Positions 2,834-25,309 of a DNA stretch of 27,195 bases are shown here, piece after piece (position 1 is the stretch's first letter; every line of letters starts with the position of its first letter). The notes under the pieces are model-generated. The model was not told where the DNA came from. It searched no databases and was given only the letters and a program-made list of their open reading frames with translations. Made by a program: the position numbers and the translations under genes. The stretch comes from a virus. The DNA lies in IMG/VR virus record IMGVR_UViG_3300030329_004623, positions 1-27,195 of that record. One strand, 5' to 3'.

Positions 2834-3191
2834 AGGTAATAAGTTTGAAAGAGATGTAGTAAAGAAAGCAGAATTATTTGAGATAGATGGAAAGCGTGCC
2901 TGGGCTTCAGATGGAAGGTCTCTTGGACTTGATGCTGAAGTTGACGTTGTTATAGGCAGTAAAAAATATAAAGATGAGATGCACGTTCAATGCAAAATCA
3001 GAAAGCGCTTACCAGAATATATATTTCCTAAAAATGATGCTATAGATAGCCACGTTATTAGAGAAGATAGGGGCGAGACCTATATAGTGCTTAGGTATGA
3101 GGATTATCTTGCAGAAATGAGGCGCTATCGCACCTTAAAACAGAAATTAGAGCTATATGAAGGCTCTACCAAGTCTCAACAAAAGTCATAG
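2811..3191 (+). CDS. Putative Holliday-junction-resolvase-like PD-(D/E)XK nuclease with a QxK variant
   Basis: 126 aa with the order found in small phage and archaeal Hjc-like resolvases: an N-terminal KGNKFERDVVKKA helix carrying E13, a WASDGRSLGL segment, D45 in AEVDVVI, and Q60-C-K62 in the HVQCKIRK strand. The usual catalytic Glu of ExK is Gln here; QxK variants are known in Mrr-like members of the superfamily, so activity is still possible. The tail is Arg/Lys-rich. A ribosome site (GGAG) lies about 7 nt before the ATG. The last 26 nt overlap the 3' end of the leftward late operon. It could resolve branched DNA before packaging, which is an inference from the fold. Confidence 0.65.
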   Translation: MSHPSKIKGNKFERDVVKKAELFEIDGKRAWASDGRSLGLDAEVDVVIGSKKYKDEMHVQCKIRKRLPEYIFPKNDAIDSHVIREDRGETYIVLRYEDYLAEMRRYRTLKQKLELYEGSTKSQQKS

Positions 3192-4263
3192 ATACATCGT
3201 ATGTCTGATGTGCGACTTGTTTTGCTGTAAATGAAGACTTATCTAGTCTGCAAATAGCAAAATCATCTTTTGTTTTATCTGGCTGGAATATGAAAGGAAT
3301 AGTCCCACCTAAAGTAAGTGTATAGAAATGAGATAATATACTTTCTTTCTTTGCTACTGAAAATAAATTTCCAAATTCGTCATCGTCAGATGGGGAGACA
3401 TAATTAGAAAATAAAAATCTATCATTAAAGTTTTGAGGAAAAACTGAATCATGTGCTATGTAAGAGAATGAAAGTTCAAAGCTTCGCCTTCCATTAGAAC
3501 CTATCGATGTTGATTCTTCGCTATTTGTAAAAGGTCTATATTTGCCAATCCAATTAGGTGGGCTACTGTATGACACATTCACAACATCACTGCCACCTAT
3601 AGTTCTTTTCTTGCTAATTCCATCGTAGTCATAATTTACATTAAGATTTAAATCTGGGCTATTAGGCATATCCATATATCTACCAACAGAAATAGCGCCA
3701 ACTTCAGGAAGTACAGGAAAGTCTGCGCTGCTATCTGAATTCAATATAACTACATAGCCACGATTATTTTCAAGTCCATTAGCTGAGGCTATTTTTGGGT
3801 CAACTAATTTTATTCTATATCCATTCCAATCATATAAATGAGAGTTTGGGGAATATTGACTTTCTGAAAAATCTTCATTTGAATAATGCGTATCTGCGTC
3901 TATTACATTTATATATGTGTCATTTGTTGATACATCTGAAAAATTATGTCCCAACACAGCGTAGTAGTTTGCAGAAGATAAAAGTTTCTGTATACCTGGC
4001 AGTTCAACATTCATTGCTATTTCGATACCCCATCTTGTCCAATAGTAATCTTGGGTATCTCCAAGAGCGCCATCAGAGTATGTTGTTTTTGCAGGATTCA
4101 TATTCCAAACTTCTTTAAAGTCTCCTGACATTTGATACCCTTGATGAGAGCCTGCCCACTGATAATATGATATTGGAACATTTGTTGCCTTGCAAAATTG
4201 CACATAATCTATAAAAATTCTCGGAGTCCCAACCGAACCATAAACGCTAGAATCTAAAGCCAT
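3166..4263 (-). CDS. Tail/virion structural protein, last gene of late operon
   Basis: 365 aa, rich in Ser, Asn, Asp and Tyr with alternating beta-strand character, no membrane segment. The final 40 or so residues (an FIFQPDKTKDDFAICRLDKS stretch followed by a beta strand ending VETW) resemble the closing strands of distal-tail and tail-tip accessory proteins, which is suggestive only. It follows the giant tail-tip gene and a 162-aa protein, a position typical of baseplate or tip accessory proteins. The start has a good GAGGAG site and overlaps the previous stop as TAATG. No catalytic motif was seen. It overlaps the plus-strand nuclease gene tail-to-tail by 26 nt. Confidence 0.55.
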   Translation of the reverse strand: MALDSSVYGSVGTPRIFIDYVQFCKATNVPISYYQWAGSHQGYQMSGDFKEVWNMNPAKTTYSDGALGDTQDYYWTRWGIEIAMNVELPGIQKLLSSANYYAVLGHNFSDVSTNDTYINVIDADTHYSNEDFSESQYSPNSHLYDWNGYRIKLVDPKIASANGLENNRGYVVILNSDSSADFPVLPEVGAISVGRYMDMPNSPDLNLNVNYDYDGISKKRTIGGSDVVNVSYSSPPNWIGKYRPFTNSEESTSIGSNGRRSFELSFSYIAHDSVFPQNFNDRFLFSNYVSPSDDDEFGNLFSVAKKESILSHFYTLTLGGTIPFIFQPDKTKDDFAICRLDKSSFTAKQVAHQTYDVSMTFVETW

Positions 4264-4751
4264 TATTCACTCCTCTTTGCTATTAAATTTTCTAAAATTT
4301 TACTATTTGGCAAGCTTGTATTGCCTGCTCTTTTTTTTCTATTAAGATAAAATCTTTTATCTTTGTTAACATAAGACAATAAAGAGTCTCCTTCAATAAA
4401 ATATTTAAAAGATTTGTTGTAATCTTCATATTTTGTCTCAGCTTCGCTCCACTTTCCAAAAATCCTATTTACCTCATCAGAGTGTTTTATAACAGGAACA
4501 GCAATAGAGCTGTCTTTAAAACGCATATATACTCTTGTAATATTTAAATTCCCTTCATATCTAATAAGCAAATTGCTTGCCACATTCTCTTTTATATTAG
4601 ATATTAATATTCTATTTTTTCCCATTGACACATGACCCTCTGGGATTAAATCTCCAGTAAATGCGCCATTAAATCTTATATCAATAAGCCTTGCTCCAGC
4701 ATAGCCAGACATAAATATTTCATTGTAATATTGGTCTATTCTAGCCTTCAT
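4263..4751 (-). CDS. Tail-associated protein of unknown function, 162 aa
   Basis: Not recognised. The first half is predicted beta-rich (ARLIDIRFNGAFTGDLIPEG, then ILISNIKENV and LLIRYEGNL), and the second half is charged and helical with a Lys/Arg-rich end. There is no Cys, signal peptide or membrane segment. Its ATG lies 11 nt inside the end of the tail-tip gene and its stop overlaps the next start as TAATG, so it is co-translated with the tail tip. A small tip subunit or assembly partner of the giant upstream protein is a reasonable inference. Confidence 0.5.
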   Translation of the reverse strand: MKARIDQYYNEIFMSGYAGARLIDIRFNGAFTGDLIPEGHVSMGKNRILISNIKENVASNLLIRYEGNLNITRVYMRFKDSSIAVPVIKHSDEVNRIFGKWSEAETKYEDYNKSFKYFIEGDSLLSYVNKDKRFYLNRKKRAGNTSLPNSKILENLIAKRSE

Positions 4752-7700
4752 TGTTCTCCCAATAATTTTCAGGTGCGTAAATATCTATTTTGAAAAACAT
4801 AGCTAACTCAGATGGAATTTTATCATTTACTTCATAGTTATATTCTACTCCTCCTAAGCTAAAGCTTTCGTTACCTATCCAATTAAAATCATCTGGATGG
4901 GAAATTGTGTCTGCTTCTAGCCTAAAAAATACTAGACCTCCACTGGGTTGTATTCTACAATTTCTAATAGTCATACCATCTAAGGCTAAAAATGCTTGAC
5001 ATACATCCCATCGCTGACCATTTTGATAAGTTTGAACAAATATCAAATCCTCGTCACTACCTATAAAACTTGTCCTGATTATTAAGTCTGTTTTTTCTTC
5101 GTGGTCACCATTAGTAGGGTGATACCCTAACGAATAACTGGCAGTATTATGAATCTTTGTATAAAGCGATTGCCAAGTAGCATCTGGGGCAAAAACATGG
5201 TCATCGCTTGTTGCAGTATAATCTGTGTCAAACTTAAAATTTATAGCGTTTATGCCATAATGGTCATATTTTCCAAGCGTTACAGAATTAAGAGATGCCT
5301 GCCCAACCTGTAAATCTGTACCATGAGAAGTTGAGGCTAGCTCAAAATAACCTTCAAAAGGGTCACTTTCACTTCCCCCACTATCAGAATCTATTAATTC
5401 TTGTAATTGATTTAGTTGAGAGGTTGGAAACAATCCTATATTTTCTATATTACTTGCACCACACAGATTGACATAATCTTGAATTGTTATTTCGTAATCA
5501 GTTTGATGGAAGTCTTTATACCAACTCACAAAAGCCTCCAAACCTAAGCCATTAAGATAAGAACCCAATGTGTATTCCTGTATTTTATCAAAGTCGTCTT
5601 GTGTTAAAAGAGCGCCATTTATAAACCCTTCTTGATATTCATTTGTCGTGCAGTAGTTAATACCATTTTCAAATTGACCTAACAAAAAGGCTATTAAATC
5701 ATGAGGCAACCCAGAAGTAGCCCCTGTGTCAATAAAGCCATTGCCATTAAGGTCGCCATTTAAAACTTGAGTGTCTGTAGGAGTGGCAACTCCATCAAAT
5801 ATTTTTAAATGATAAATAATATCTCTTATGTTTACTTCGCCATTCATAGTTAAGTCGCCTGGAACTTGGAAAAACTCTCCATTTATGTTATTATATTCAG
5901 CAAGAAGAATATTATAGTCTTCCCAATCTGTTGACCCATCATTGTCAAAGTCAGGAAGATTAACATAGTGAGGGTTTCCTTCTTGTATTGTAAATCCTTG
6001 AATTTCCTGTAAGTGAAGCTGAAGATACAACAAATCAATAGAAGTAATGACTCCATCACCATCTATGTCGCCTGGCACTTCAGAGGAAAAATCCATTTGC
6101 TGTGCTACTGTTGGATAAGCGTGTAGTCCTGCAATGTAATCTGCCCAATCAATAGAGCCATCTAGGTTTGCATCAGCATTTTCCATCCATGCAACATTAG
6201 GGGGGTCGACAGTTCCTGCATACATATTAGTAACATATTGCCAAATAGCTTGGAAGTCATGTGTTGTAATATAGCCATCTCCATTAACATCCCAAGGTCT
6301 GTCTGGGGCATCTTCCATATCCTCATCATGTAGACCTGTGTTTTGGTATTCGTCAATCAAGTCACTTAATAAACTTAAATCCTGTTCATCTATTACCCCA
6401 TCTTGGTTTATGTCTGCATTCGCTAATCCTTGTTCTGATATCTCAATATCCATTCCTGCAAGATAGTCTGCGAGAAGTTCATAATCTGTTTCGTTAACCC
6501 ATCCATTCTGATTAATGTCTCCAGGCAAGGTAGGGTTTAAGGTTATTATTTTTAATTCATTAAATTGATAAAGCTCTAAATTTACCTCAGTTAGACTCTT
6601 GGATGCGCTAGTTATCATAAAGTAGGGTAGTGCTTTTTGGTCTGTGTTTCCTATTGAATGGCTCGAAGTTACGGTTTTACCAAAAGGTTTGACACCTCCT
6701 GGGTCTTTTGAAAACCTGACAATATCTCCAACCTCTAGCTCTACACCTTCTTTTAATGGCAGTGTTAGTTTGCAAGTTAAGTGCTGGTTTTTATTTAACT
6801 CATACAAATAGTTCATTAAAATTTTTGCAGTTGTTTCGTCTTGTATGTAGGGAGTATCTATTTCTACTCTATAGTCTAGGTGATTATCTACATCATATAA
6901 GTTTTTAAAACTATCTACTTGTTCTTCAGTGTACTTGGTTGCCACAACTCCATCGTATTCTTTTGTTAAATAGTTATATGCGTATTTAACAGTGACACCA
7001 CCAAAACATAAATTTTCTATTCTTGTTTTTGAAAATTGATATTTTAAAATCATATCAGAGTCAATAAGCTTATTTACATCTCCATTATTATAAGTATTCC
7101 TTATGGCATCAATGACTGGAGACCCATCACTCACCCTATGTCTAAAAAATAGTCGTGATTGCCTACATATATCTTCAATCACATCTTTTGCAGGGGTAGA
7201 CTCGTTTATAGAAAATGCAAATTTATTATTTTGTTCAGAATTTAAAGCATTGTTGTATTTCTGCAAATCTTCAAATCCAACTACATTTCCAATTTCATTC
7301 TCCACAACATCTTTAATTATTTCTGCTGGGTTTTCTGCGAGATTTTGATAGTCTGTATTGACGCAATTCCAATACGCCATCGTATACCCTCGTCTTTGAT
7401 ATGTATTTGCCCCATAATAATTAGAAACAGTGCCCCAAGGACATCCATTGCTATCATTAAAAGCACTAAATTCGACATTTTGGTCTTCTGGAGATTCTGT
7501 TATGGAACTTATGCGCTTATTGCCACTTTCTCGAAAATAATTTTTTCTTGCCCATACAATTCTCAATCCAAAAAAAGCACCCTTTAAACTTCCTGATATT
7601 TGAGGAACATCTCCAAAAAGATACCCAGAAAATCTAATATCCCAGCCTTTGCTGTGCAAAACACTAGAGTCTACCTCCCCAATATCTACTAATGTTCCAC

Positions 7701-10143
7701 CTGATGGAGTTCCCACTATTAACTCGCCACCATTACCATTTTCTCCGTAAGAAAGACCTAAATTGTGAATATCTACATCATATAAATAAGCTTTGGTGAT
7801 AGTTCCGTCAGGAAGCTCAGTCAAAGAAACCAGCATTCTTTCGTACAATTTTCCATTTATAAGTCTTGTCTTTAGCTTTGTATCTGTAAATATTTTATGA
7901 AATTCATGAAAATGAGTGTTATTAGTGCTTTTATTGAAGCTGCCATCCTCGTTCCCCCAAAGAATTTCAATTATCCCTGATACTCTTTCTGTTTGGTTGT
8001 ATTGTTGAAAATAGTCAGAATACCACAAAAACCCATCGCCTCTTTTTCCCTTTGCATTTACAAAAAAATCTTTTGAAAAAATGTTGCTTTCAGCCCATGT
8101 TTTTTTCAGCCTTACATCTTTCCAATAACTTGTAATATCAGCATCTCCAATGTCAGCATCAGATTCTGTGTGGTGCATCATATAAAAAGATATTTGCGTG
8201 ACATCTATTAAAGAAAAGTGACTTGAATAACCAACTTGCAAAAGACCCTCTTCATTTATAAACATATATTCCATGTGGTGTCCAAAAGTCTTTTTATTTA
8301 GCTCATTAAACAAATCTCCATAAAGATACGCTTGATAACTATTAGTAGTGCCACCCTGGTCTACATTTGTTGTATGAAAGTGATTAAGTGGAGCAGATGG
8401 CATAGTTGATGGCGAGTAAAAATCGTGAAATCTTTGTGTGTCAAAAGCGTAACTATAAGGAAAATCAGTAGTGCCTTGTTGCATCTCATAGGGCATCATA
8501 TAAGGGCTTATTTCGTCTGGATACCCTATTTCATCATCAGCCTGCAAAGCGCCAGTTAGCCACAGAGACTTGTCTACACCAAAATCTCCAAGCCCCTGCA
8601 TATCTGTGTTTATTTTAAATTTAGATGGAAATCCAAACACTGCCATAGAATTGCAAGTTAAGTCATGAGGAACATCTCCTGAAAAATAATGTTTATTTCC
8701 ATTCGTTTGATAAATATTTCCTGCCACTGACTCTATGTGGTGTAAGCCAACCAGTCCAATATCTACAGGATGATAAGTATTGTTTCCTTCTCCATCAACA
8801 ATGAAATATATTTCTGCCCCAGAGAAAGGTTCAAAGTTTAATGTTTCAATCGCAGTAGAGCATTTTTGATACTCAAATGTAGTAGCCCAGTCTTCATTAA
8901 TGTCTCCAAAATTTACCGATGTATGTATATCTAAAAACTCTGTTTTTTCTGAATCTGAAACAGCAGGATAGTAGTAGTTTTCAACATTTGTAGTATCTTC
9001 TGCATTTGTAAATATTTGAGAAATGCTATTTAAAACTATTCCACTTTTCGATAAATAGTCTGACAAATGATTAACCCACAAAGCGCCCTTTGTTAATAAT
9101 GTCGGATTTGAATCAAGTGTCCCAGTGGCTGTCTCTGATATTAAAGTGATACTATTCATGTCTGAGCTAGAGTTATCAAGGAACGCATATCCATCATAAT
9201 TATCTACAATATATTGTGGGTGCGCATATATATTTTCGCTAGACATATAGCTGCCATCAGTAACCATATTATAACTTTCAAACAAAGCAGCACTTGCATT
9301 CCAAGAAGGTACTGCTAAAACAGAGCAAAATTTTTCATCTACTCCTATTTTTAAAGTATCATTGTCTTCTAAAAACTTTCCATAAACTGTTTCCCCTCCA
9401 CCCCCTGCTTCATAAGACCAGTTTGTAGGAGAATTTGTCCATGCTCCATTTACTTCACCTGCAAATCCTAAATTTTTAATTCCACATATTTTGCTAGTGC
9501 TAGGATTTAAATAGGATGTATCTACGAGAACTTTTACTGAGCTATCTTCACTATTAATATTTTCAACATATATAGTTGCAGGAGCAGCTTCCAAGTGTCC
9601 ATATAAGATAGGAACTGGCTTTGCATTATAATGTTCATAAGTATCAACTGCTTGTCTTAAAATATACTCATCTTGTGGTAAGTTTTGAGAAAAAGCTTGC
9701 ATAGAGATGTCATCTGCATTTATTTTTACTTTTTTCTCATCATGCTCTATCCTAGTAATCTTTAATTTTGCTACCCTTATGCAATCAGAAGTGCTTTGAC
9801 AAGATTGGGTTTTTAGCCAAACATCTATTGTTGCTCCTATTGCAAGAGCAGGATTATTTGAAATTCTATCTTCGTTGCTTACAGAGGCTGGAAAGTTTGT
9901 TAATGTTATACTTATGTTAGATAGTTGTATTTTTTTCGTTCTAAGGTTTATCCTTTCTGAAATCTTAGATATCTTCAGGTCTCTATCTTCGTAGAAGCGT
10001 GTGCCAGCATCAAACATTTGTTTTTTTGTTGCAATATAAATAGGAGAGGCATCTCTTCCTCCTATTCTGATTAAATGTTCAGCATTGGTAACTCCTGCTG
10101 TTAAATCGTCTTTTAATATTGAGTATTGAGATAAATCTATCAT
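4741..10143 (-). CDS. Giant tail-tip/hub protein with four dockerin-like (EF-hand) modules
   Basis: 1800 aa. Residues 1-200 (RIGGRDASPIYIATKK region, then KISERINLRTKKIQLSNISI) look like the N-terminal part of siphovirus tail-tip proteins. Residues about 985-1200 include an LEVGDIVRFSKDPGG stretch, typical of a hub domain. Residues 1209-1475 hold eight 12-residue calcium loops (first Asp at 1209, 1244, 1285, 1324, 1359, 1398, 1430, 1464), each followed by a helix; they pair into four dockerin-like modules of 71-76 residues from first to second-loop start. Loops 2-6 keep Asp at 1, Asp/Asn at 3, Asp at 5, Gly at 6 and Asp at 12; loops 7 and 8 are degenerate. The C-terminal 250 residues are beta-rich and may be a receptor or carbohydrate-binding cap. 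It follows the tape measure with a TAATG overlap. Being the tail-tip protein is supported by position and domains; host attachment by the repeats is inferred. Confidence 0.75.
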   Translation of the reverse strand: MIDLSQYSILKDDLTAGVTNAEHLIRIGGRDASPIYIATKKQMFDAGTRFYEDRDLKISKISERINLRTKKIQLSNISITLTNFPASVSNEDRISNNPALAIGATIDVWLKTQSCQSTSDCIRVAKLKITRIEHDEKKVKINADDISMQAFSQNLPQDEYILRQAVDTYEHYNAKPVPILYGHLEAAPATIYVENINSEDSSVKVLVDTSYLNPSTSKICGIKNLGFAGEVNGAWTNSPTNWSYEAGGGGETVYGKFLEDNDTLKIGVDEKFCSVLAVPSWNASAALFESYNMVTDGSYMSSENIYAHPQYIVDNYDGYAFLDNSSSDMNSITLISETATGTLDSNPTLLTKGALWVNHLSDYLSKSGIVLNSISQIFTNAEDTTNVENYYYPAVSDSEKTEFLDIHTSVNFGDINEDWATTFEYQKCSTAIETLNFEPFSGAEIYFIVDGEGNNTYHPVDIGLVGLHHIESVAGNIYQTNGNKHYFSGDVPHDLTCNSMAVFGFPSKFKINTDMQGLGDFGVDKSLWLTGALQADDEIGYPDEISPYMMPYEMQQGTTDFPYSYAFDTQRFHDFYSPSTMPSAPLNHFHTTNVDQGGTTNSYQAYLYGDLFNELNKKTFGHHMEYMFINEEGLLQVGYSSHFSLIDVTQISFYMMHHTESDADIGDADITSYWKDVRLKKTWAESNIFSKDFFVNAKGKRGDGFLWYSDYFQQYNQTERVSGIIEILWGNEDGSFNKSTNNTHFHEFHKIFTDTKLKTRLINGKLYERMLVSLTELPDGTITKAYLYDVDIHNLGLSYGENGNGGELIVGTPSGGTLVDIGEVDSSVLHSKGWDIRFSGYLFGDVPQISGSLKGAFFGLRIVWARKNYFRESGNKRISSITESPEDQNVEFSAFNDSNGCPWGTVSNYYGANTYQRRGYTMAYWNCVNTDYQNLAENPAEIIKDVVENEIGNVVGFEDLQKYNNALNSEQNNKFAFSINESTPAKDVIEDICRQSRLFFRHRVSDGSPVIDAIRNTYNNGDVNKLIDSDMILKYQFSKTRIENLCFGGVTVKYAYNYLTKEYDGVVATKYTEEQVDSFKNLYDVDNHLDYRVEIDTPYIQDETTAKILMNYLYELNKNQHLTCKLTLPLKEGVELEVGDIVRFSKDPGGVKPFGKTVTSSHSIGNTDQKALPYFMITSASKSLTEVNLELYQFNELKIITLNPTLPGDINQNGWVNETDYELLADYLAGMDIEISEQGLANADINQDGVIDEQDLSLLSDLIDEYQNTGLHDEDMEDAPDRPWDVNGDGYITTHDFQAIWQYVTNMYAGTVDPPNVAWMENADANLDGSIDWADYIAGLHAYPTVAQQMDFSSEVPGDIDGDGVITSIDLLYLQLHLQEIQGFTIQEGNPHYVNLPDFDNDGSTDWEDYNILLAEYNNINGEFFQVPGDLTMNGEVNIRDIIYHLKIFDGVATPTDTQVLNGDLNGNGFIDTGATSGLPHDLIAFLLGQFENGINYCTTNEYQEGFINGALLTQDDFDKIQEYTLGSYLNGLGLEAFVSWYKDFHQTDYEITIQDYVNLCGASNIENIGLFPTSQLNQLQELIDSDSGGSESDPFEGYFELASTSHGTDLQVGQASLNSVTLGKYDHYGINAINFKFDTDYTATSDDHVFAPDATWQSLYTKIHNTASYSLGYHPTNGDHEEKTDLIIRTSFIGSDEDLIFVQTYQNGQRWDVCQAFLALDGMTIRNCRIQPSGGLVFFRLEADTISHPDDFNWIGNESFSLGGVEYNYEVNDKIPSELAMFFKIDIYAPENYWENNEG
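5670..6525 (-). repeat. Eight EF-hand/dockerin loop repeats within the tail-tip gene
   Basis: Protein-level tandem repeats with loop cores DINQNG, DINQDG, DVNGDG, DANLDG, DIDGDG, DFDNDG, DLTMNG and DLNGNG, spaced 32-41 residues. Odd repeats 1, 5 and 7 follow a Pro-Gly, so the array reads as four two-loop dockerin-type units. The DNA copies have diverged in sequence, so this is not a recent expansion. Confidence 0.85.
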
Positions 10144-19072: not shown

Positions 19073-20284
19073 CTAGACGACAACTTCAAATATTGTTTTT
19101 TTCTGTGTTCTTTTTTCTGTCGATTTTGCATTATAAGCCTCCAATGACTTATCTATGTCATATCCTTCTTCTTTTACATTTTGAAGGTCAACTTTAATTC
19201 CGTCTCTATTCCCATTGCTGTAAAATATGTAGCAATTCTGACTAGCTCTGCCGTTCAAGTTAAGAGCTTTCTCTGAATAGTCATTAGCCCCTACCATTGA
19301 TGAGCTTCGACCAAAATTGTCTCCCACTCTAGCTGAATGGACATGACCAAAGATTACATAATCAATCTTTATTCCTTTTAAAGAGTACCTTCCAGCGATT
19401 TGGTTCACAGAGGTATCTAATTTTCCTTTTAACGAACCGTGTCCATGGAGCATTAATAAATTTTGACCTGCGACATTTATTACTAATTCTGATGGGTCTC
19501 CATGTATAAATTTAACACTTTTATCTCTAAATAAATACCTTAAACATTGAAATATTGTATAATCATAGTTGTCTGTAGCTACAACATTACTCCATCCCAT
19601 TTCTTTATTTGCTCTACCTTCATTTCCGACTACAGAAGCTACAGTTACATTAAAATCTTTATTTAAGTCTATAATAGCTTGTTGGAGGATGTCCACCCCA
19701 AGAAAAGTAGCCTTAGCTCTGTTGGTAGCTTGATTTAAAAGCTCATCAAGTCTCCTGTCGCTGTTCATAAGGTCACCTGTCAGTGCCATTACTATATTAC
19801 TAGCCTTCGCTGTCTTAAAATAGGTTCTAGCCTTATTAACAAAATATCTAGTTCGTGCAGAAGCAACCTTGAAATCATATCTGTTGTTTTCTAATTCTAC
19901 AAGCTCGTTGAAGTGGACATCGGAAAATTGTATTACGCCCACAGCTTTATTGTTAGACTCAAAAGTATTTAAAGTCTTATGTAATTTGTTTTTTTCAAAA
20001 AGCGATACTAATTCTTTACTGTATTCTTCAACAGCATTTTCAACTCTAGCGTGTTCACGAAACGCCTTGTTGGATATTCTGTTTTTGTCCTGCGCTCGCT
20101 GTTTCTGCTTAGATAACCTTACATTTTCTCGTATGATGTCATGGTCAGCATCACAGATTGGATATATCGTTGAAACTTTGCATTTTGCACATTCATATCT
20201 TTGCTTATGATTTCTCGTGAAACCACATTTCATTAGACCGATATGATAGCAGTTCGGACATATTAACTCTTTAGGGTTTACCAT
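19073..20284 (-). CDS. Zinc-ribbon-metallophosphoesterase fusion protein
   Basis: 403 aa in two parts. Residues 9-35 form a zinc ribbon (C9, C12, C32, C35; CPNC...GFTRNHKQRYECAKC) like the DNA-binding N-terminus of IS1 InsA. A basic helical linker (50-105) follows. Residues 116-330 carry the calcineurin-like metallophosphoesterase motifs: D122-x-H124, G170-D171, G220-N221, H280-G-H282 and G313-H314-x-H316. The usual GNH(D/E) reads GNEG here, so the catalytic His of motif III is replaced by Glu, while the metal-binding Asn is kept. The combination suggests a DNA-directed phosphodiesterase or nuclease, as in SbcD/Mre11 relatives, but substrate is unproven. It lies between the lysozyme and the membrane proteins, an odd place for a DNA enzyme. 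Confidence 0.75.
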   Translation of the reverse strand: MVNPKELICPNCYHIGLMKCGFTRNHKQRYECAKCKVSTIYPICDADHDIIRENVRLSKQKQRAQDKNRISNKAFREHARVENAVEEYSKELVSLFEKNKLHKTLNTFESNNKAVGVIQFSDVHFNELVELENNRYDFKVASARTRYFVNKARTYFKTAKASNIVMALTGDLMNSDRRLDELLNQATNRAKATFLGVDILQQAIIDLNKDFNVTVASVVGNEGRANKEMGWSNVVATDNYDYTIFQCLRYLFRDKSVKFIHGDPSELVINVAGQNLLMLHGHGSLKGKLDTSVNQIAGRYSLKGIKIDYVIFGHVHSARVGDNFGRSSSMVGANDYSEKALNLNGRASQNCYIFYSNGNRDGIKVDLQNVKEEGYDIDKSLEAYNAKSTEKRTQKKTIFEVVV

Positions 20285-20299
20285 TTACCCCCTGGCTTG

Positions 20300-20725
20300 T
20301 TATTGTGATTTTATAATTTCACTTAACTCTTTAGCCCTATTAGGACTATCTGACCTTGCCCATTTGGAATCGAGCATCTCCTCACTAGCCATTAAAAAGT
20401 TATCATCTTTTATGTATTGTATTGTTTTTTTAAATTTCTTAACGCCAGAAAAGCCTATCTGGAAAATCATATTGACCAAAACATCTTGAACTGTCTCTGA
20501 TTTATCAAAGAACCAAGAGTCCCAGTCGTCATCTCCTTCTATTCTAGCTAATATACCTCGTATTTTCTTGTCGAGTATCAAGTTTGCAATCTCTTCATCC
20601 ATAAATAAATCTTTGATTGCGAATCCATACCCTATAGTATCATAACCATTAGGGCATTTATATACACGAGGTTCGTAACCTTCGTGTTTTGCTATCATCT
20701 CTTTTAAATTATTTAAGTCTTTCAT
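20300..20725 (-). CDS. GH24 lysozyme (endolysin), Cys variant of the catalytic triad
   Basis: 141 aa, close to the usual 145-165 aa of T4/P22-type lysozymes. The active-site block is HEGYEPRVYKCPNGYDTIGY, with E15, C24 and T30 in the positions of T4 lysozyme Glu11, Asp20 and Thr26 (E-8 residues-D/C-5 residues-T). A Cys in the second position is found in functional members of the family. The enzyme hydrolyses the muramic acid-glucosamine bond of peptidoglycan. There is no signal peptide or SAR anchor, so release would need a holin; three small membrane-protein genes lie downstream. The stop/start overlap with the upstream zinc-ribbon gene is ATGA. It also implies a bacterial, peptidoglycan-bearing host. 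Confidence 0.88.
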   Translation of the reverse strand: MKDLNNLKEMIAKHEGYEPRVYKCPNGYDTIGYGFAIKDLFMDEEIANLILDKKIRGILARIEGDDDWDSWFFDKSETVQDVLVNMIFQIGFSGVKKFKKTIQYIKDDNFLMASEEMLDSKWARSDSPNRAKELSEIIKSQ

Positions 20726-22060: not shown

Positions 22061-22582
22061 TTAATTTTTGGAGTAAGACTTAATTATATCTTTCCAATTC
22101 TCCCTCAAGGCTTTTTTATCGGAGTAATCTATTTTCTCTTTTAATACTTTCTGCCTTGGGTTGCCAGCAACCTCTGGAGCGTTGGATTTAATATTATTAA
22201 TCTTACTTGTTAAATATTCGAGAGTATCAAGGTCTAAACCTGCTAACCTTTCTCTCTCCTCTTCAGGGGCTGATTCCAATAAAGTGTTTCTGCGATTCTC
22301 CTCATACTTATTCCACTTCTGTGCAGTGTTAGATAAACTTTCATTTTCAGAAGACACTTTTTCATAAAGTGCTTTAAAATCTTCCTTCTCTTTAAGTTTA
22401 GCTTCTTCTGCTCTAGTAAGTTTCTTTTCAAGTTCAGCTAATCGTGCCTCAGCGTCCTGCGCCCTTTTTCTGTACTTCTTATTTTCATAAGCAAGTGGAC
22501 TTTCAGTATCAGGCGAATCTACCTCAGTCCCTGTTGAAACTTCCTCACTGACTGTGGCGTTGGTTTCGGTATTATCAGACAT
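22061..22582 (-). CDS. Scaffolding protein (coiled-coil, acidic)
   Basis: 173 aa from ATG 22582, preferred over an earlier ATG at 22597 because GGAGG lies about 8 nt before it. The N-terminal 40 residues are acidic and low-complexity (SDNTETNATVSEEVSTG), residues about 45-95 are a long charged coiled coil (RAQDAEARLAELEKKLTRAE), and the C-terminus is basic, which is the usual scaffold layout: a coiled-coil dimer plus a basic coat-binding end. It precedes the capsid gene. The job is guiding procapsid assembly and then leaving. No protease motif is visible, so it is a free scaffold rather than a fused protease-scaffold. Confidence 0.75.
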   Translation of the reverse strand: MSDNTETNATVSEEVSTGTEVDSPDTESPLAYENKKYRKRAQDAEARLAELEKKLTRAEEAKLKEKEDFKALYEKVSSENESLSNTAQKWNKYEENRRNTLLESAPEEERERLAGLDLDTLEYLTSKINNIKSNAPEVAGNPRQKVLKEKIDYSDKKALRENWKDIIKSYSKN

Positions 22583-22676
22583 TGTTATGTCCTCCATATA
22601 TAGTGTTTTTTTTAGGTCAAATACACAATATCTTGTATATATCCCATTGCGTAACTTATATTACATTGGCTTTAAA
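22583..22676. promoter_or_regulatory. Divergent intergenic region between scaffold and terminase operons
   Basis: The only divergent gap in the window, so it should carry promoters for both late operons. On the plus strand, TTGTAT and TATATT about 18 bases apart precede the terminase start, a fair sigma-70-like candidate. On the minus strand only weak candidates exist (TTGTGT or TTGACC before TATATA with poor spacing). A T8 run is present. No clear operator repeats were seen. Confidence 0.4.
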
Positions 22677-24002
22677 ATGCAAACATTTAATAATAATCTA
22701 ACAAATTTTAAAGAAAAGTGGTTTGATTTTATGGACTACAAGCCTCATAACGGTCAAACTAAACTGCATTTTCCTACAAAGGATAAGTCTCGGTTTTTTG
22801 TCATGGTTTGTGGTCGTAGGTTTGGAAAGTCTACAGCAGCAGCTATGGAAGCTACCTATTATGCTTCTCAGCCAAATAAAAGAGTATGGCTTGTTGGTCT
22901 TTCCTACGACAAAGCAGACATTATGTTTAGAGAAGTTTGGAAGCGAATGGTTATCGGAAAAGCTAATGATGTTGAAAAAGCCTCTGAGAAAGAACGATAC
23001 ATACGCTTCAAATGGGGTAGCGTAGTAGAAGCTAAGTCAGCAGATAACCCAGATTCTTTAGTGGGAGCTGGTCTTGACCTACTTGTTATCGATGAGGCTG
23101 CTAAAGTAAAGAAGAAGATATGGGAAATGTATCTTTCTCCTACATTAGCCGATAAGAAAGACAGTAAATGTATTTTTATCACTACCCCACAAGGATTTAA
23201 TTGGATATATGACCTGTTTTTATTGGGTAAGTCCGATGAATTATGGGAATCGCACCAAGCACCTTCTTGGGAAAATCAATATGCGTTTCCTGAAGGAGAG
23301 TCAGATGCTTTCCTTGTTGAAAGAAAAAGAAATATGTCAAAGGAAATGTTTGAGCAAGAGTTTGGCAGCGCTTTTACTTCCTTTGAAGGTAAAGTTTATC
23401 CATTTGATAGGAACAAAGATGTTGGGGATTATCCTTATAATCCTAATTATCCAACTTACTGCTCAATAGACTTTGGATACAGGATGCCAGCAGTTGGCTG
23501 GTTTCAAATACATAGAATAGACGGAGAATGGCATATAAATGTTATTGACGAAATTATACATGAAAAAAACATTAAAACGGACGAGCTTATTAATAAAATA
23601 AAAGCAAAAAATTATTGGGTTAGGGAATATTATGGAGACCCAGCTGGGATGCAAGCTCAAGGACAGTCTGGACTGGGAGATATAGAAATTTTTAGAAGGA
23701 ACGGTATTAATGTTAGGTCTGTCAGAGATAAAACTTCAAGAAATATTGCTTCAGGGATTAGCCACATTAGAGGATATATTGAAAACGCCAACGGCAATCG
23801 CTATTTACATTTGGATAATAAGTGCAAAGGATTGGCTGAAGACTTGGAAAATTATCGTTATCCAGAAGCTATTGAAAACAAAGATTTAAAACCTGAGCCG
23901 TTAAAAGACGGAAGGCATGACCATGGCTGTGATATGCTTAGGTACTTTTTTATAAACCAATTTCCAATAAAGCGAAATAAATTAATCATGAGGACTAGAT
24001 AA
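22677..24002 (+). CDS. terL: Terminase large subunit (TerL)
   Basis: 441 aa from ATG 22677. Motifs in order: Walker A GRRFGKST (residues 46-53), Walker B LLVIDEA (135-141) with catalytic E140, a coupling-motif candidate ITTPQG near residue 168, and the C-terminal RNase-H-like nuclease acids D265 (SIDFG), D321 (YYGDPAG) and D419 (HDHGCD). It cuts concatemers and pumps DNA through the portal. The longer frame back to 22554 is rejected because it would run antisense into the scaffold gene and its residues do not fit. The stop overlaps the portal start as TAATG. No small terminase gene is adjacent. Confidence 0.92.
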   Translation: MQTFNNNLTNFKEKWFDFMDYKPHNGQTKLHFPTKDKSRFFVMVCGRRFGKSTAAAMEATYYASQPNKRVWLVGLSYDKADIMFREVWKRMVIGKANDVEKASEKERYIRFKWGSVVEAKSADNPDSLVGAGLDLLVIDEAAKVKKKIWEMYLSPTLADKKDSKCIFITTPQGFNWIYDLFLLGKSDELWESHQAPSWENQYAFPEGESDAFLVERKRNMSKEMFEQEFGSAFTSFEGKVYPFDRNKDVGDYPYNPNYPTYCSIDFGYRMPAVGWFQIHRIDGEWHINVIDEIIHEKNIKTDELINKIKAKNYWVREYYGDPAGMQAQGQSGLGDIEIFRRNGINVRSVRDKTSRNIASGISHIRGYIENANGNRYLHLDNKCKGLAEDLENYRYPEAIENKDLKPEPLKDGRHDHGCDMLRYFFINQFPIKRNKLIMRTR

Positions 24003-25309
24003 TGACTACAGTAGAACAAATTATAGCAGAATCGATTAAAGATTATAAGTTGCACCAAGCCCAATCTAGGCGAAAAGAAATATACAAGCTTTTAGATTTT
24101 TATTCTGGCTGTGAAATTCAAAAATACATAACGCCTTATTTTGATGCAGACGCTTTTAGGGAGATTCCTGTTTATAGTGCGAATTTTACCAAAAGATTTA
24201 TAAATAAGATGTCAAGAATTTACAATGTTGGCGCAAATAGAAATGTAAATGACTCTTATGACAATCTAACTATCAAAAAAGATGCGAGAATGAAACATAT
24301 AGAAAAAATGACTAGACTTATTGGAACTGTAGCCACACAAGTCATTTATAGAGATGATGTTGAGATGCCTCACTTTGATTATCGCCCAGTTTATTACTTT
24401 GATGTTCACATGGAAGATAATCCTTTTGTCCCAACAGCTATTACATATCCAATCCTTCACAATGTTAATGAAGTTTATGATACAAGAAAATTAGAATACG
24501 CTTATTGGGATAGCAATATGTACGCTCATTATGACGAAGATGGAAATATAATATCAGAATACGAGCATGGCTACGGAGTTATTCCTTTTGTATTTACCCA
24601 CAGAGAAAATCAACTAGATTCTTTCTTTGTCGAGGGCGCTAATGATATTGTTGACTGCAACGAGCAAGTAAATATTACTATGACTGAGCTTCAATTAGGG
24701 CTTCGTTTCCAAATGTTTGGTCAGCCATTTGTTACTGGAGTATATAGTGATAAAGGAATGAAGAGAACAGGGTCAGATTCTATTCTTGACTTACCAGAAG
24801 GAGCTACTTTCGGCATCGCTTCTCCTGGAGGCAATATTCAGTCTGTAATAGAAAGTGTTAAGTTTCAAGTAGACCTTGTAGCGCAAAATAATCACCTATA
24901 TGTTCAGTTTGCTCAGGATGGAGGCGAAGTTCCTTCAGGTATAGCACTAAAGATTAAAGACTTAGAAAGATTTGAAGACTATCAAGATGACTTGGAGCTT
25001 TGGAGAATGTATGAGCATGACTTATATCATGTTGAAAGAGCTATTGCTGGGTATAATGGAATTAATCTTCCTGGCGAGCTTAAACTTGACTTTATTGAGC
25101 CTGAGTATCCAAAAACTGTACAAGACCAGATATTAATGGATAATCACGCTCTTCAAAATAATCTTACAACACAGCCACAGCTTTTAGTTAAACAGAATAA
25201 GGATTTATCATTAGAGGAGGCAAAAGAAATTGTCAGAGCAAACAAGCAAGAAAACGAGCAACAATCAATATTTGAGAGAATTCGTCAGCAAGCTCAAAGA
25301 CCTGCATAA
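24002..25309 (+). CDS. Portal protein
   Basis: 435 aa, directly after TerL with a TAATG overlap, the standard order. An N-terminal helical part (RRKEIYKLLDFYSGCEIQKY), a GVIPFVFTHRENQ strand region, an EQVNITMTELQLGLRFQMFG helix and a C-terminal acidic/helical region fit the wing, stem and crown of SPP1-type portals. The protein forms the dodecameric ring at the head vertex through which DNA enters and leaves. The last 80 nt overlap the next gene. Size is near the usual 420-500 aa. Confidence 0.85.
   Translation: MTTVEQIIAESIKDYKLHQAQSRRKEIYKLLDFYSGCEIQKYITPYFDADAFREIPVYSANFTKRFINKMSRIYNVGANRNVNDSYDNLTIKKDARMKHIEKMTRLIGTVATQVIYRDDVEMPHFDYRPVYYFDVHMEDNPFVPTAITYPILHNVNEVYDTRKLEYAYWDSNMYAHYDEDGNIISEYEHGYGVIPFVFTHRENQLDSFFVEGANDIVDCNEQVNITMTELQLGLRFQMFGQPFVTGVYSDKGMKRTGSDSILDLPEGATFGIASPGGNIQSVIESVKFQVDLVAQNNHLYVQFAQDGGEVPSGIALKIKDLERFEDYQDDLELWRMYEHDLYHVERAIAGYNGINLPGELKLDFIEPEYPKTVQDQILMDNHALQNNLTTQPQLLVKQNKDLSLEEAKEIVRANKQENEQQSIFERIRQQAQRPA

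Follow-up and report, generated by a model that had tools for sequence, protein, structure and literature searches.

The 27,195-base virus record IMGVR_UViG_3300030329_004623 of IMG/VR, analysed over its whole length and referred to below as the window, encodes a hub-type phage tail-tip protein in which four dockerin units stand in tandem. It is followed by a small gene, d1, whose product is homologous to a domain adjacent to dockerins in exported proteins of Marinimicrobia, and this bacterial domain has in turn a profile similarity to cohesins. In the reading proposed here, to which an even chance is given, a dockerin-d1 surface module from Marinimicrobia would have been split over two phage genes, with d1 docking on the tail-tip dockerin.

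The dockerins are confirmed as real, beyond chance. Pfam Dockerin_1 (PF00404) matched the tail-tip protein in four stretches, with a total of 93.5 bits (expectation value, E, 9.2e-27); units 1-3 each exceed alone the curated cut-off of 22.9 bits, and unit 4 does not. The four units were also recovered by a profile built from bacterial dockerins only (E 5e-21). A profile made from phage dockerins scored the real stretch at 102 bits, against 10.2 bits for the best shuffle, the former value being slightly flattered since the profile contains unit 1 of the window. Strict loops of the form D-x-N-x-D-G-x-x-N-x-x-D occur 7 times in the real stretch, while 5000 composition-preserving shuffles averaged 0.008 and never exceeded 1. 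The calcium ligands (Asp or Asn at positions 1, 3 and 5, Asp at position 12) are kept in seven of the eight loops, one with Thr at position 3; the eighth loop, DLNGNGFIDTGA, at about residue 1464, is degenerate, with an insertion at the place of the Asp in position 12. The first-pass annotation, which had paired eight loops into four dockerin units, was therefore right as far as sequence goes, with a single loop not intact.

The structure model, covering residues 1188-1800, gives a more uneven picture. Unit 1 was modelled at a predicted local distance difference test (pLDDT) of 93-97 and has the expected dockerin fold: its best nine matches in the PDB are all dockerins, and comparison with solved single dockerins gave template-modelling (TM) scores of 0.7-0.88 and root-mean-square deviations of mostly about 1 Å (2.3 Å for one nuclear magnetic resonance model). 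Units 2-4 and the rest of the model have low confidence. These units were modelled poorly because the alignment contains nothing equivalent to them, and their fold is consequently deduced from the sequence.

Relatives of the window's phage were found through capsid, terminase, tail-gene and d2 queries, d2 being the tail gene next to d1, and amount to more than 100 mostly marine-looking metagenomic records. Queries with the whole tail-tip protein gave no relatives in IMG/VR (searched by patterns), phage records or PHROGs, and no close isolate relative was found. The gene order is constant: a tail tube-like gene, two small genes, tape measure, tail tip, d1 and d2. Dockerins above cut-off were detected in 13 of 50 scanned records, always within the long open reading frame (ORF) behind the tape-measure-like gene. 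As the dockerins are confined to the tail-tip gene, and no cohesin (PF00963) exceeds its cut-off in the phage records, membership of a cellulosome, which would call for a scaffoldin bearing several cohesins and for enzymes that carry dockerins, was rejected.

The dockerin is a clade-wide feature of these related marine phages. Its copies are canonical, and many lie at the extreme C-terminus: nine records (L164, L166-L172 and the truncated L173, which is ended inside the dockerin by the contig end) have it as the terminal domain, and the calcium ligands are nearly invariant in this C-terminal set. In the window and in L156-L163 the order is hub domain, then directly the dockerin-like units, then a cap. 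Unit 1 of the window is the positional homologue of the post-hub dockerin of the relatives, and PF13550 (Phage-tail_3) matches, sub-threshold at E about 1e-3, fall just before the dockerin point in two of them, in agreement with the earlier placement of the units right after the hub domain and before a C-terminal cap. A MAFFT alignment hinted at shared ancestry of the window's cap with the other caps; this was rejected, a cap profile from L156, L160 and L162 performing no better on the window than on shuffles. Short GCT-x-NY-x-DDGSC-type repeats lie between hub domain and C-terminal dockerin in the tail-tip proteins of L164 and L173.

The linkage of d1 to the dockerin was evaluated on 72 lineages, defined by clustering d2 at 90%. 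Dockerin and d1 are both detected in 23 lineages and both missing in 46; in the remaining 3, d1 is present but the dockerin is so degenerate that the bacterial profile misses it. All 26 lineages of the dockerin clade have the d1 gene between hub and d2. The 46 dockerin-less lineages have no d1 gene there, and the end of their hub gene and d2 are at most 45 bp apart. The dockerin gene and d1 are adjacent and sometimes overlap. The d1 proteins form two BLAST clusters, which by profile comparison are one family (97%, E 7e-11). In two records (L167, positions 9699-9703, and L170, positions 8984-8988) the start codon of d1 is in frame right after the tail-tip stop (TAGATG), and readthrough of this stop would yield a fused dockerin-d1 protein, as in Marinimicrobia.

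A likeness of d1 to cohesins had been proposed before structures were compared by Foldseek. The window d1 is modelled as a beta domain, with residues 1-90 mostly at high confidence, and cohesins rank 1, 2, 3 and 5 among its matches in 350,542 PDB chains; their TM scores of 0.2-0.3 include the disordered tail of d1 beyond the beta domain of about 90 residues. No cohesin match was given by Pfam for 15 d1 proteins, nor was any sequence match to PDB cohesins found. The connection is made by the Marinimicrobia d1 domains, which hhalign aligned both to phage d1 (98.9%, E 4e-17) and to Marinimicrobia cohesins (86%, E 5e-6, over 79 columns; reversed control 0.1%). Because they match both, d1 is classed, from profile similarity, as a cohesin relative. 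Two sub-threshold cohesin matches of 13.8 bits, in the N-terminal part of the tail-tip proteins of G035 and G297, fall on identical profile positions of two near-identical tail genes and were taken as chance. A structural match to d1 (E 1e-5) was found in BFVD within a very long viral protein, A0A516LNX3 (1389 amino acids), possibly a tail protein with which d1 is naturally fused.

Bacterial genomes were scanned with a d1 profile containing no dockerin sequence. Matches were obtained in 19 of 244 Marinimicrobia genomes (E up to 0.05, best E 2e-14), and in none of 395 Bacteroidota, 294 Planctomycetota and 15 other dockerin-bearing genomes (E up to 0.001); the Gemmatimonadota control consists of one genome and says nothing on that phylum. 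In each of the 11 Marinimicrobia proteins examined, d1 is preceded by a dockerin at a distance of 11-18 residues, so that the phage gene order, dockerin then d1, mirrors the bacterial domain order. All eight Pfam-scanned Marinimicrobia d1 proteins end in the sorting domain PF18962 of the type IX secretion system (T9SS); one of them has a Pfam cohesin and two a dioxygenase domain. G055 has 11 matches, and G232 and G233 have 8 each. In the Marinimicrobia exported proteins L445-L455, including the dioxygenase-domain proteins L448 and L451, the region between dockerin and T9SS tail is occupied by a domain family without a Pfam match of its own.

Marinimicrobia are also the best guess for the host of the window's phage, on account of this d1 distribution and of prophage-like relatives, although such a host is not demonstrated. 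Contigs (L461-L465) assigned to three genomes of the Marinimicrobia group (G243, G244 and G245) contain relatives of the capsid (53-55% identity), portal and hub genes; their guanine plus cytosine content is 53-63%, and they have neither dockerin nor d1. On the two longer contigs the neighbourhood includes bacterial genes, such as those for an M13 peptidase and a sodium:alanine symporter, which makes the capsid and hub relatives look like prophages. The contigs are likely to represent prophages in genomes of this group; misbinning of contigs into metagenome-assembled genomes is a possible source of them. Two other host markers were discarded: dockerin similarity, as the phage dockerins are about equally close to those of rumen Bacteroidales and of Marinimicrobia, and a terminase relative in Marinimicrobia, whose best identity of 42% was judged not convincing.

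The features of the window discussed here, and those next to them, are collected in Table 1.

Table 1. Tail-tip dockerin region of the window and neighbouring tail genes
Feature	Position	Strand	Basis
Tail-tip (hub-type) protein, 1800 amino acids	4741..10143	-	ORF; after tape-measure-like gene; Dockerin_1 93.5 bits
Conserved C-terminal hub domain, residues ~937-1193	6565..7335	-	Profile match in dockerin-bearing and dockerin-less relatives
Dockerin unit 1, residues 1207-1265; loops DINQNGWVNETD, DINQDGVIDEQD	6349..6525	-	PF00404 45.3 bits; pLDDT 93-97
Dockerin unit 2, residues 1283-1345; loops DVNGDGYITTHD, DANLDGSIDWAD	6109..6297	-	PF00404 31.3 bits; all calcium ligands in both loops
Dockerin unit 3, residues 1357-1420; loops DIDGDGVITSID, DFDNDGSTDWED	5884..6075	-	PF00404 32.5 bits; both loops intact
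Dockerin unit 4, residues 1428-1495; loop DLTMNGEVNIRD intact, second degenerate	5659..5862	-	PF00404 18.4 bits, alone under cut-off
C-terminal cap, residues ~1500-1800	4744..5646	-	No detectable homology to relatives' caps; low model confidence
d1, 162 amino acids; predicted cohesin-related beta domain, residues 1-90 (nt 4473-4748), low-confidence tail	4263..4751	-	Model, Foldseek, Marinimicrobia homologues
d2, 365 amino acids, next tail gene; occurrence not tied to dockerin and d1	3166..4263	-	Clusters across all relatives; profile scan, tree
Tape-measure-like protein, 687 amino acids	10143..12206	-	Position, length; homologues in all relatives

No Pfam or PDB match was found for d2, and family searches with the tape-measure-like protein gave nothing above cut-off. 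The window has its capsid and tail genes on the minus strand, opposite to the terminase and portal genes (22061-25309), which are on the plus strand. At 19073-20284 is a calcineurin-like phosphoesterase-type protein whose N-terminal stretch resembles a zinc ribbon; next to it lies a lysozyme-type endolysin (20300-20725).

Domains that are fused in one organism and encoded by separate adjacent genes in another often interact. Dockerin and d1 are fused in Marinimicrobia and lie in adjacent genes in the phages, and on this ground d1 is predicted to sit on the tail-tip dockerin. A marine siphovirus-like clade would have taken over the module, most likely from Marinimicrobia (SAR406), where both domains are consecutive in one exported protein; in the phages the hub protein has the dockerin towards its C-terminus, and d1, a putative shortened cohesin relative, is the product of a gene of its own. 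The most likely mechanism is a calcium-dependent docking of the cohesin-dockerin kind, by which d1 would complete a host-like surface module at the tail tip, presumably serving adsorption. Unit 1 of the window would be the inherited docking unit; units 2-4 may be extra, diverged copies retaining calcium sites, probably working mainly as a calcium-stiffened arm bearing a variable cap. More specifically, and somewhat more tentatively, the pair may act as the phage's own tail-tip clamp, copied from the fused Marinimicrobia module and allowing calcium-dependent, non-covalent assembly or exchange of a host-like adsorption module.

Several observations weigh against docking of d1 on the dockerin, or against its origin in Marinimicrobia. 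Taken alone, the phage dockerins do not resemble those of Marinimicrobia more closely than those of other phyla. The Foldseek cohesin matches of the window d1 have E values of only 0.03-0.06, and the direct profile comparison of phage d1 with cohesins is not significant, its cyclic-shift null being contaminated by retention of the local match; instead of binding the dockerin, d1 could be its companion fold. Three lineages (L221/G024, L219/G025 and L165/G030) have kept d1 while their dockerin is undetected by the bacterial profile. On the d2 tree, dockerin and d1 are a single change, which indicates one gain or loss followed by long co-retention and not a repeated association, and their co-occurrence is by itself no proof of interaction. 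Finally, loop positions 10 and 11 are those by which cellulosomal dockerins contact the cohesin. Position 10 is Val or Ile in 53 of 63 bacterial loops and in all 16 real loops of the C-terminal phage dockerins (the pattern-matched set includes one spurious seventeenth match); the corresponding counts are 1 of 7 loops in the window and 0 of 13 in the internal relatives. Glu or Gln is found there in unit 1 of the window and in most internal relatives, and units 2-4 vary. In the window's branch the docking surface thus seems to have been changed or lost with calcium binding kept, a combination which suits a calcium-stiffened arm for units 2-4.

The same residues bear on an alternative which is unlikely, yet the best of those considered: that the tail-tip dockerins dock onto a cohesin on the host surface, mimicking host dockerin proteins, and that d1 is the dockerin's companion, as in the host proteins that have both in cis. 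At position 10 the C-terminal phage dockerins keep the contact residue of bacterial dockerins, which speaks for such docking; the window dockerins are without it. A host-surface cohesin is a possible partner: cohesin matches are present in all six genomes checked (five of Marinimicrobia and one of Gemmatimonadota), five of the six above the Pfam cut-off, and some Marinimicrobia proteins join cohesin-type domains, dockerin, d1 and T9SS tail. The host of the window's phage is itself a guess. The first-pass annotation looked for a cohesin-like partner on the host only, whereas the very next phage gene codes for a cohesin-related protein.

Less probable again is that the four units, without any docking partner, are purely a calcium-stabilised spacer that stiffly connects the hub to a receptor-binding cap. 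Such a role fits the retention of calcium ligands in 7 of 8 loops beside a variable contact position, and the location of the units between a conserved hub and a cap without detectable kin among the relatives. The earlier suggestion of a spacer presenting the cap accordingly holds up for units 2-4 of the window, but does not extend to the nine related records with a C-terminal dockerin; in relatives such as L168 and L169 it is the last domain and presents nothing. A spacer also leaves the constant linkage of the cohesin-related gene unexplained. That dockerin and d1 are passengers, acquired jointly as a stretch of one host gene and kept as a neutral tail decoration, would agree with the single change on the tree, but is very improbable: among 26 divergent lineages, 23 show both, and in the C-terminal phage dockerins the calcium ligands hardly vary.

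Compared with known systems, the window's units share with type I dockerins (PF00404) the two calcium-loop-helix repeats per unit, the fold and the calcium ligands, as well as the C-terminal position in many of the phage relatives; they differ in lying inside a phage tail-tip protein, four in tandem and followed by a cap, and in not conserving position 10. To cohesins (PF00963), d1 is related by its top structural matches as a predicted beta domain and, through Marinimicrobia intermediates, by a significant profile similarity, whereas this domain has about 90 residues against about 140 in the cohesin jelly roll, and d1 has no Pfam match and a low-confidence tail, and is a free-standing phage protein. 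The T9SS-exported dockerin-d1-Por_Secre_tail proteins of Marinimicrobia have the same two domains in the same order, but in one polypeptide with a sorting tail, while the phages use two genes and no sorting tail. Hub-type tail proteins (PF13550, Phage-tail_3) have, like the window, a conserved domain just ahead of the dockerin point; dockerin-less relatives end after it, at about 700-1000 amino acids, against 1100-1880 for dockerin-bearing ones. The EF-hand-like calcium site of the phage lysin LysGH15 (PMC4022735) is likewise a calcium-binding loop in a phage protein, but belongs to an enzymatic lysin domain and not to a tail docking module.

The occurrence of dockerins and cohesins outside cellulosomes is already known (review cited within PMC9012536). 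Apart from cellulosomes, many non-cellulosomal bacteria and archaea have these modules. Phage papers that mention dockerins (PMC3558961, PMC5967307) concern an unrelated gene or a template match, and no report of a cohesin-dockerin pair in a phage tail was found in the open-access literature, subscription journals being mostly outside the search. If d1 binds the tail-tip dockerin, these phages would build an adsorption device from a plug-and-socket pair. The link to Marinimicrobia provides a host hypothesis that can be tested for these uncultured marine phages; it also suggests what the uncharacterised domain located after dockerins in the exported proteins of Marinimicrobia may do.
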